53,219 bases of DNA, taken from IMG/VR virus record IMGVR_UViG_3300023109_001857, positions 1-53,219 of that record; one strand, written 5' to 3'. Below are positions 27,485 to 28,977 of this stretch, one piece after another. How positions within the stretch are numbered: position 1 is the stretch's first letter; each line of letters opens with the position of its first letter. The position numbers were made by a program, and so were the translations under genes. The DNA comes from a virus. The notes below the pieces were generated by a model. It was given only the letters and a program-made list of their open reading frames with translations. It was not told where the DNA came from and made no database searches.

Positions 27485-27572
27485 GGAGAGGTGGCTGAGT
27501 GGCCGAAAGCAGCGGATTACTAATCCGCCGAACCGAAAGGTTCCCAGGGTTCGAATCCCTGTCTCTCTGCCA
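27485..27572 (+). tRNA. tRNA-Ser, anticodon ACU
   Basis: 88 nt, class II, CCA encoded. Acceptor GGAGAGG with TCTCTCT, long variable arm GAACC-GAAA-GGTTC, T-arm CAGGG/CCCTG. The anticodon loop is TTACTAA, giving ACU where bacterial tRNA-Ser normally has GCU. It should read AGU best. Confidence 0.93.
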
Positions 27573-27579
27573 AAGACGT

Positions 27580-27743
27580 GTTGAGGTTGCTCCTCGACTA
27601 GTATGGGTTAGCAAGTCCCATATGATAAGAAGTGATGTCGCAATCACAACAAAAGGCTCGATGCAAGTATGCCGGCAGTGTATGTCGTTAGTGCGAAGGG
27701 GCGGAGCAGGCATAGTCTGCGTTGAAACCGTTAGCACGTACAC
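27580..27743 (+). ncRNA. candidate structured RNA between tRNA-Ser and tRNA-Gly
   Basis: No convincing protein is encoded. Three hairpins follow each other: GTTGAGG/CCTCGAC (27580-27598), GTATGGG/CCCATAT (27601-27623) and GTGAT/ATCAC (27632-27647). Further pairing is possible: TATGCC (27668-27673) with GGCATA (27709-27714), and GTGTATG (27678-27684) with CGTACAC (27737-27743), which would form a pseudoknot. GTTAG recurs three times. T4 carries two stable RNAs of unknown role (C and D) in its tRNA cluster, so a similar RNA is plausible. Confidence 0.45.
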
Positions 27744-27752
27744 AAACTAATT

Positions 27753-27826
27753 GCGGGTGTTGTGTAATGGTAAGACCTTAGCCTTCCAAGCTAATGATAG
27801 GGGTTCGATTCCCCTCACCCGCTCCA
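27753..27826 (+). tRNA. tRNA-Gly, anticodon UCC
   Basis: 74 nt with encoded CCA. Acceptor GCGGGTG/CACCCGC, anticodon loop CTTCCAA (UCC, reads GGA), T-loop TTCGATT. Confidence 0.95.
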
Positions 27827-27856
27827 TAACAACAAGTAACATGAAAGGTTACAATA

Positions 27857-28096
27857 ATGGGTCGAGTCTTTATTGAAGAAGCAATGGATGTTACAGGCAT
27901 CAATCGAACTGACTTAGTTGCAGTATGTGCTTATCTAAAACGTTCAGGGCAAGCATCAAGTGCAGCAGATGCACTTCGTTTGCTTGAAACTGGAACTATT
28001 GATAAACACATTATCGAAGAACAAATGATTAACTCTTTTATGGTTGAGAAGACTGACACTCCAAAAGTTGAGGAAGAAGAAGACTCTATAGAATAA
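27857..28096 (+). CDS. hypothetical protein within the tRNA cluster
   Basis: 79 residues, helical start (GRVFIEEAMDVTGINRTDLVAVCAYLKRSG) and an acidic tail (KVEEEEDSIE). A weak AAAGG lies 12 nt upstream. It sits between tRNA-Gly and a tiny zinc-ribbon gene. Not recognised. Confidence 0.6.
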   Translation: MGRVFIEEAMDVTGINRTDLVAVCAYLKRSGQASSAADALRLLETGTIDKHIIEEQMINSFMVEKTDTPKVEEEEDSIE

Positions 28097-28103
28097 GTAC
28101 TGT

Positions 28104-28181
28104 ATGATAAACAAATGTCCTGAATGTAAATTTGAATTGGATCATAATGATTTTTGTCCAATTTGTAGAGTAAAAAGATAA
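28104..28181 (+). CDS. 25-residue zinc-ribbon peptide
   Basis: MINKCPECKFELDHNDFCPICRVKR has two C-x-x-C knuckles (CPEC, CPIC), enough for one zinc site. It ends one base before tRNA-Thr. The knuckle pattern supports translation although no good ribosome binding site is visible. Function unknown. Confidence 0.55.
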   Translation: MINKCPECKFELDHNDFCPICRVKR

Positions 28182-28182
28182 T

Positions 28183-28258
28183 GCCGCAATAGCTCAGTTG
28201 GTAGAGCAACTGATTTGTAATCAGTAGGTCCCGGGTTCAAATCCTGGTTGCGGCACCA
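28183..28258 (+). tRNA. tRNA-Thr, anticodon UGU
   Basis: 76 nt with encoded CCA. Acceptor GCCGCAA/TTGCGGC, anticodon loop TTTGTAA (UGU, reads ACA), T-arm CCGGG/CCTGG. Confidence 0.95.
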
Positions 28259-28267
28259 TATAACAAC

Positions 28268-28361
28268 ACCTTCCAGGCTTAACATAGTTAGCTCAATACC
28301 GGAAGGTTACTTATGACCCAAGGTCACTGTACTGGTCTTGTCACCTGTATACACCTGGGTC
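28268..28361 (+). ncRNA. candidate structured RNA between tRNA-Thr and tRNA-Leu
   Basis: Two extended hairpins fill the gap. ACCTTCC (28268-28274) pairs with GGAAGGT (28301-28307), with an inner GCTTAAC/GTTAGC stem. GACCCA-GG (28315-28323, one bulge) pairs with CCTGGGTC (28354-28361). There is no open frame. It could be a separate stable RNA or a spacer shaping tRNA processing. Confidence 0.4.
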
Positions 28362-28372
28362 TTCCTAACAAT

Positions 28373-28457
28373 GCGCCTGTGGTGAAATTGGTAGACACGC
28401 TAGATTTAGGTTCTAGTGCTTTACGGCGTGGGGGTTCAAGTCCCTCCAGGCGCACCA
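28373..28457 (+). tRNA. tRNA-Leu, anticodon UAG
   Basis: 85 nt, class II, CCA encoded. Acceptor GCGCCTG/CAGGCGC, anticodon loop TTTAGGT (UAG, reads CUA), variable arm around TGCTTTACGGCG. Confidence 0.95.
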
Positions 28458-28477
28458 AATAAAAGTTAACTTAATGG

Positions 28478-28506
28478 TTGACAACAATAAATAAAGAGTG
28501 TATTAT
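28478..28506 (+). promoter_or_regulatory. σ70-type promoter overlapping a late-type box
   Basis: TTGACA (28478-28483), 17 bp, TATTAT (28501-28506). The sequence TATAAATA starts at 28504, so the same site could also serve as a late promoter. It precedes the attenuator-like leader and tRNA-Trp, -Pro and -Gln. Confidence 0.75.
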
Positions 28507-28537
28507 AAATACATAATAAGAAATAAGGAATACTAAC

Positions 28538-28606
28538 GTGTTAAGAACAGTACAACAATCGTCATCACAGAATTGGTGCCCACCAAAAGGTAGGGGTATG
28601 TCTTAA
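28538..28606 (+). CDS. 22-residue putative leader peptide
   Basis: GTG start with AAGGAA 7 nt upstream. It encodes VLRTVQQSSSQNWCPPKGRG followed by Met-Ser. It contains CAA-CAA, one UGG and CCA-CCA, exactly the codons read by the three tRNAs encoded after the terminator. Start and stop codons lie on opposite strands of stem A. No protein family fits; the codons rather than the peptide are probably what matters. Confidence 0.55.
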   Translation: MLRTVQQSSSQNWCPPKGRGMS

Positions 28607-28636
28607 CGCGACTTTGTAGAAAAGTTATATTAAGCA

Positions 28637-28672
28637 AGCCCCTAGCACTAATAATGTTAGGGGCTTTTTTTG
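28637..28672 (+). terminator. Rho-independent terminator before tRNA-Trp
   Basis: AGCCCCTA pairs with TAGGGGCT, extended by one A-T, followed by seven T. A strong terminator in front of, not after, a tRNA group. Confidence 0.85.
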
Positions 28673-28692
28673 TGGAGGAATAAAAAGTTTAA

Positions 28693-28776
28693 GTCGGGTC
28701 GGTACAGTTGGAGTGGTACACTGGTCTCCAAAACCAGGACGAGAGTCAGGGGGTTCGAATCCCTCACCCGATGCCA
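28693..28776 (+). tRNA. tRNA-Trp, anticodon CCA, with enlarged variable arm
   Basis: 84 nt with encoded CCA. Acceptor GTCGGGT/ACCCGAT (first pair G-U), anticodon loop CTCCAAA (CCA, reads UGG), T-arm GGGGG/CCCTC, discriminator G73. D-stem GTAC/GTAC. The 11-nt variable region can form GAC-GAGA-GTC, unlike the 5-nt variable loop of normal tRNA-Trp. Confidence 0.85.
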
Positions 28777-28781
28777 AATAA

Positions 28782-28858
28782 CTCGATGTAGCACAGTCTG
28801 GCAGTGCGTTCGCTTTGGGAGCGAAAGGTCGTAGGTTCGAATCCTACCATCGAGACCA
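28782..28858 (+). tRNA. tRNA-Pro, anticodon UGG
   Basis: 77 nt with encoded CCA. Acceptor CTCGATG/CATCGAG, anticodon loop TTTGGGA (UGG, reads CCA), T-arm GTAGG/CCTAC. Confidence 0.95.
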
Positions 28859-28863
28859 AGTTT

Positions 28864-28938
28864 TGGGGAGTAGCCAAGCGGTAAGGCAACAGGTTTTGAT
28901 CCTGTGTACCGAAGGTTCGAATCCTTCCTCCCCAGCCA
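28864..28938 (+). tRNA. tRNA-Gln, anticodon UUG
   Basis: 75 nt with encoded CCA. Acceptor TGGGGAG/CTCCCCA, anticodon loop TTTTGAT (UUG, reads CAA), T-arm GAAGG/CCTTC. Confidence 0.95.
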
Positions 28939-28948
28939 ATTTAAATGG

Positions 28949-28977
28949 TTGACAAACGGTACTAATTATCGTATAAT
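28949..28977 (+). promoter_or_regulatory. σ70-type promoter with shared leader
   Basis: TTGACA, 17 bp, TATAAT. The 24 bases from the -10 onward repeat those at 21793-21816. Confidence 0.8.

Follow-up and report, generated by a model that had tools for sequence, protein, structure and literature searches.

A probable ribosome-mediated attenuator before a phage tRNA operon, with leader codons that follow the tRNA genes downstream

The stretch of DNA analysed here (the window) is a 53,219-base virus record, a fragment of a T4-like phage whose protein content includes topoisomerase II subunits, DNA ligase, endonuclease V, a head protease and GroEL, and whose topoisomerase shares 39% identity with its counterpart in Pseudotevenvirus RB43 and kin. 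The GroEL-type chaperonin (538 aa) is encoded by the phage at 3499-5115. Positions 27485-28938 hold seven tRNA genes as called by ARAGORN. Among them, between tRNA-Thr and tRNA-Leu, the stretch 28262-28372 carries long inverted repeats (ACCTTCC/GGAAGGT and GACCCA/TGGGTC), for which no match was found in Rfam. The last three of the seven genes, tRNA-Trp(CCA) (28693-28776; Rfam 40.6 bits), tRNA-Pro(UGG) (28782-28858) and tRNA-Gln(UUG) (28864-28938), are preceded by a separate unit of promoter, leader and terminator, and, since the next gene has its own promoter at 28949-28977, the controlled unit would be Trp-Pro-Gln, with tRNA-Trp as its first gene and tRNA-Gln as its last. All parts of this unit lie, as do these three genes, on the plus strand.

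The unit opens with a sigma-70-type promoter, TTGACA-17-TATTAT, at 28478-28506 (11 of 12 matches), followed by a ribosome binding site, AAGGA, at 28525-28529, 8 nt before the GTG of a 22-codon frame that runs from GTG to TAA at 28538-28606 (VLRTVQQSSSQNWCPPKGRGMS). This frame contains CAA CAA (28553-28558), readable by tRNA-Gln(UUG), a single UGG (28574-28576), readable by tRNA-Trp(CCA), UGC (28577-28579) and CCA CCA (28580-28585), of which tRNA-Pro(UGG) reads CCA. It also contains UCA, and neither UCA nor UGC has a matching tRNA in the operon. An intrinsic terminator (stem 3:4) with a 12-pair stem at 28636-28666 and a U-run extends over 28636-28671, so that in the window, as in its relatives, a terminator stands between the leader frame and the first gene, as an attenuator requires. 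A sequence-only reading of this DNA had already named the promoter, ribosome site, 22-codon frame, terminator and the three tRNA genes, and each of these parts was found where that reading had placed it.

The minimum-energy fold of the window leader consists of an outer stem (stem 1:2), whose 5' arm at 28537-28546 includes the start codon and whose 3' arm lies at 28601-28610, together with the terminator; this is the same pair of structures that had been proposed from the sequence, and its energy is -44.6 kcal/mol as against -27.9 +/- 3.1 in shuffles (z -5.3). When the fold is computed without the stretch that would be covered by a ribosome at UGG, and only up to the terminator 5' arm, an antiterminator (stem 2:3) of -23.5 kcal/mol is predicted instead, in which a 5' arm, UAGGGGU.UG.CUUAA, at 28591-28606 meets a 3' arm, UUAAG CA. 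GCCCCUA, at 28630-28644 through the pairs UAGGGGU:GCCCCUA, UG:CA and CUUAA:UUAAG, around an inner hairpin, GACUUU/AAAGUU, at 28610-28626 (arms 28610-28615/28621-28626). The pairing of TAGGGG with CCCCTA that the sequence-only reading suggested is thus present, but it is merely the tip of this longer duplex. Because the antiterminator takes one arm from each of the other two stems (the outer stem's 3' arm and the terminator's 5' arm), the three stems are mutually exclusive, as in classical attenuators. The stop codon at 28604-28606 falls within the antiterminator 5' arm, so that, from folding only, the leader has the exclusive 1:2, 2:3 and 3:4 stems and the stop codon placed to block 2:3 that are expected of an attenuator.

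Relatives of the leader were gathered from virus contigs, initially as 80 loci obtained via a search with the neighbouring phosphoesterase, many of which carry the same leader, and further through four DNA-motif scans, giving in total 102 leaders with tRNA genes and 83 distinct frames. The contigs are uncultured fragments, some of them from the same populations, and the tRNA calls are those of ARAGORN. About 100 related loci share the promoter, frame, stems and terminator, which is more than chance would give. In these relatives TTGAC is kept upstream, the short frame retains its own ribosome site ahead of the genes (AAGGA, an ATG or GTG start, and a stop), as is required of an attenuator leader, and a terminator is present in all the related leaders listed. 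In all 102 leaders UGG occupies one of codons 10-13 and a Pro codon comes no more than three codons later, the order of residues being either C-W-P-P or W-C-P-P. Furthermore, tRNA-Trp is called as the first gene in 101 of the 102 loci, and in the exception, L137, an unannotated tRNA-Trp is visible in the sequence. The front edge of a ribosome lies about 12 nt ahead of its A-site codon, and in 78 of 84 units UGG and GGGG are 13, 16, 19 or 22 nt apart; such spacing is as expected if changes in length preserve the frame and if GGGG has to stay uncovered while a ribosome sits at UGG.

One scan used a motif that comprised only GGGG and the RNA after it, demanding neither frame nor UGG. Of its 112 examined matches, 108 carry an already collected leader frame, another (L126) has both frame and tRNA-Trp, two lie at a contig end that cuts them just before the frame, yet have tRNA-Trp downstream, and the last is unrelated sequence. 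The sequence-only reading had named relatives that keep the RNA and lack the frame or the codon match as an observation that would count against it, and no loss of the frame was found among these 112 matches. Translation of the leader frame may be inferred, though only from the conserved start and stop, the ribosome site and the in-frame codon signal described below. Beyond these contigs, no copy of the leader came up in cultured phages when three different leaders were used in distant blastn, which matched tRNA genes or AT-rich stretches instead. In phiPsa374 and C48C1, cultured phages with similar tRNAs, the gene listing of the tRNA region shows no such arrangement, intergenic DNA being outside the scope of that comparison, and prokaryote genomes gave four motif matches, none of them among the leaders with tRNAs.

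Structure in the relatives was assessed by folding each sequence and by swapping partner arms between leaders. A consensus fold of the full alignment had yielded fragments only, because frame-keeping insertions shift the arms, and was replaced by this procedure. Across 92 distinct leaders, pairing of GGGG with the 5' arm of the terminator is seen in 91, and an outer stem of five or more pairs in 89. Both the outer stem and the terminator covary among leaders: the former has -11.8 kcal/mol with its own partner and -9.2 with swapped partners (0/2000, z -9.1), and the latter -18.1 with its own arms and -14.5 with swapped arms (0/2000, z -11.3). The excess for the antiterminator's own partner is modest (z -2.7), as its 5' arm is nearly invariant; the antiterminator region has a mean of -19.8 kcal/mol, as against -12.8 when the spacer is shuffled (0/100), the terminator standing at -18.5.

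Proof that leader codons match the tRNA genes comes from the family and not from the window alone, in which the operon lacks a tRNA for several of the leader codons. Codon tests were made on 83 units, each distinct in codons and tRNA set. AUA occurs in the leader of all 20 operons with an AUA-reading tRNA, defined by a UAU or CAU anticodon, and in 9 of the 63 without (p=1.2e-12), which bears out the expectation of the earlier reading that related phages would have test codons matching their downstream tRNAs. That the CAU tRNAs read AUA, as lysidine-modified Ile2, is an inference; UAU and CAU tRNAs are each linked to the AUA codon separately. Similarly, UCA accompanies tRNA-Ser(UGA) in 12/14 units vs 14/69 without it (p=6e-6), UGY accompanies tRNA-Cys in 46/46 vs 25/37 (p=2e-5), CAA accompanies tRNA-Gln in 8/9 vs 20/74 (p=5e-4) and UAY accompanies tRNA-Tyr in 6/6 vs 34/77 (p=0.01). 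Many tests were made, and AUA, the main one, survives any correction. Across 468 combinations of tRNA and codon the four strongest are all cognate, two of these being subsets of the first. Matches other than Trp and Pro number 209, as against 111 +/- 8.6 when tRNA sets are permuted among leaders (0/2000). The excess of cognate codons spans 40 to 10 nt before GGGG, with none at 4 or 1 nt. Individual pairs of leaders illustrate the trend: the near-identical L007 and L008 have CCA and UCA respectively, with tRNA-Ser(UGA) only in L008, and the close pair L183 and L087 have UGU and GGU, with tRNA-Cys in L183 and tRNA-Gly in L087. Two side observations concern the AUA class. The UAU-anticodon tRNA in the operons of L007, L059, L157 and L200 has a variable arm that is unusually long for an isoleucine tRNA. 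In addition, the leaders of L002 and L218 have three AUA codons and no AUA-reading tRNA was found downstream; the L218 contig ends soon after the operon, and L002 may have lost its AUA-reading tRNA gene recently.

In the other two frames the AUA, UCA, CAA, UGY and UAY links vanish (for AUA, p=0.97 and 0.91). This bears on the idea that the RNA is T-box-like, or otherwise binds a tRNA or ligand directly, with translation unneeded and the frame incidental. The leader does look like a T-box in outline, with its invariant UGG, its compact fold and its terminator and antiterminator, and T-boxes, as would the phage leader, respond to tRNA charging via termination and antitermination. However, T-boxes bind tRNA directly without translation, whereas conservation in the phage leader suggests a frame that is translated: relatives retain the ribosome site, the start, the stop and the frame, cognate triplets are enriched in frame only, and there are several codons per leader. 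Moreover, Rfam gave no T-box or other riboswitch match in the window leader even at E values up to 10. We therefore give direct binding almost no credence. Rfam has no accepted match for the leader of any kind, Thr_leader (21.8 bits of 55) and Trp_leader (19.7 of 41) falling below their gathering thresholds, which makes the leader similar in outline and not a member.

Shared ancestry was assessed on a tree built without the test codons, from the promoter side, the stretch from GGGG to the terminator, and tRNA-Trp. On this tree the presence of an AUA-reading tRNA changes 16 times. Among 11 independent pairs on supported branches, 10 are for the AUA link and 0 against (median p 0.002), and for UCA 6 are for and 0 against of 11 (median p 0.03). 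For Cys (3.2 for, 0 against of 11 pairs) and Gln (2.4 for, 0 against of 6) there are too few differing pairs, as there are for Tyr, Gly and Arg, where none goes against. On this tree the AUA link is not just ancestry, the codon having changed repeatedly and independently with the tRNA. Controls with the AGA and Asn codons gave no such trend, and gain of AUA tends to go with loss of ACA. Genes upstream of the promoter provide a further control. The tRNAs for Thr, Leu, Gln, Ala, Glu and Asn located there have no codon link to the leader; Gly(UCC) has a weak one (11/20 vs 6/31, p=0.01), glycine codons also arising from the constrained stretch before GGGG, and the CAT tRNA likewise (2/2 vs 5/43, p=0.02). 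Another view would be that a constitutive promoter and a leaky terminator set tRNA levels, or that the terminated leader is a small RNA, codon matches then reflecting a codon preference shared within each phage. The promoter would indeed give a terminated RNA of about 160 nt in any case, but this view leaves the in-frame, position-limited cognate codons and the conserved exclusive stems unexplained, and most tRNAs upstream of the promoter are without a codon match, such that it is scarcely tenable.

The fit is nevertheless imperfect. That the frame holds just a single UGG also counts against the attenuator reading. The earlier claim that the codons match the downstream tRNAs holds strongly, in frame only, for the family, yet it fails in part for Pro and Cys and, in the window, for UCA and UGC; test codons cognate to what the operon supplies, a further property of an attenuator, are therefore present with these exceptions. 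Pro codons are invariant with or without a tRNA-Pro in the operon, and Cys codons occur in 25 of the 37 operons without tRNA-Cys. The misfit may be due partly to CCC:GGGG pairing in the outer-stem fold, as modelled, and partly to sensing of host tRNAs that are not replaced. Alternatively, W-P-P or W-C-P-P could be an arrest peptide, perhaps sensing free tryptophan or EF-P in a TnaC-like manner, in which case the amino acids would matter and not the tRNA supply. Such a peptide would account for a W and then a P that are invariant at codons 10-13 even without tRNA-Pro, and Pro-Pro is known to slow ribosomes. However, the remaining residues differ freely between leaders and follow the tRNA genes (AUA, UCA, CAA, UGY, UAY), the change from C to G between L183 and L087 is in step with tRNA-Cys and tRNA-Gly, and no arrest peptide is needed, so that an arrest peptide seems improbable.

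The promoter, frame and stop are conserved, the three stems are exclusive and the codons covary in frame with the tRNA genes. We consider it highly probable that the unit is a ribosome-mediated transcription attenuator before a phage tRNA operon, by which phage tRNAs are induced upon slow codon reading; the attenuator reading first made from the window is supported in that no copy found has lost the frame and the codons track the tRNA genes, a comparative result from which the regulation is inferred. In such a model the RNA would start near 28513 and a ribosome would trail RNA polymerase on the leader frame. With charged tRNAs for the test codons plentiful, the ribosome would proceed to the stop at 28604-28606 and cover 28591-28606, whereupon no antiterminator could form, the terminator would, and the tRNAs would not be made. 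A ribosome held at a test codon (here UGG, CCA or CAA; in relatives AUA, UCA, UGY, UAY or others) would have its front edge short of GGGG, the antiterminator would precede the complete terminator, and polymerase would read into tRNA-Trp and the rest. In the absence of translation, the outer stem would form and lead to termination. The leader would thus behave as an OR-type sensor, in which a lack of just one of the tested tRNAs would suffice to turn on the whole set, with negative feedback at the tRNA level. Ribosome stalling and read-through are inferred, and all evidence is comparative or from folding, with no expression data and uncultured relatives. The signal, also by inference, is probably that host tRNAs are lost during infection or that charging is low; host tRNA loss to defence nucleases has been discussed for phage tRNAs (PMC10264068) and is one candidate. 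It is also likely, in our judgement, that the leader senses tRNA shortage through several inputs, its codons being rewritten in evolution to suit the tRNA genes under its control, allowing on-demand induction, for example upon destruction of host tRNAs by a defence nuclease or by infection.

Leader-peptide attenuation of amino-acid operons has been described and modelled (PMC1183508). The E. coli trp, his, pheA, ilv, leu and thr attenuators, like the phage leader, have a frame of test codons, 1:2, 2:3 and 3:4 stems and a stop that blocks the antiterminator. Unlike them, the phage leader would control tRNA genes, test several unrelated codons at once and have a codon set that shifts as the operon gains or loses tRNA genes. 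Genes for tRNA synthetases can also be under a leader-peptide attenuator, as are E. coli pheST. In bacilli, hisS and hisZ have such attenuators (PMC2965389); in these systems the leader peptide governs a gene for tRNA charging, with a protein product, whereas the phage unit would govern the tRNAs themselves through a multi-codon leader. Theta ribozymes (HDV-like) by phage suppressor tRNAs are another RNA element proposed to act in phage tRNA production; they are self-cleaving and not a translated leader controlling termination (PMC10879173). A genome-wide survey of attenuators makes no mention of phages (PMC2965389), and a full-text literature search, limited to open-access papers and hence not proof of absence, found no described attenuator of tRNA genes. 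To our knowledge, and within the open-access papers searched, this would be the first attenuator controlling tRNA genes, the mechanism itself being known. If the operons are indeed turned on when their own codons are decoded slowly, phage tRNAs would serve to repair a shortage during infection, the leader codons would reveal which tRNAs run short, and the leaders would be one of the rare instances in which codon choice and tRNA genes co-evolve in cis.

Between the leader terminator and tRNA-Trp, some relatives carry additional RNAs. A structured RNA of about 75 nt, absent from the window, occurs at L006:6386-6462 and also in L107, L112, L131, L169 and others; it has a 10-bp closing stem and three arms, with no match in Rfam for the L006 type. 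Its loops CUGCAA and UUGCAG are complementary, possibly forming a kissing pair, and its arms differ between L006 and L112 yet keep their pairing. A second type of RNA, TACACTC...GAGTGTA, occupies the same place in L010 and L213.
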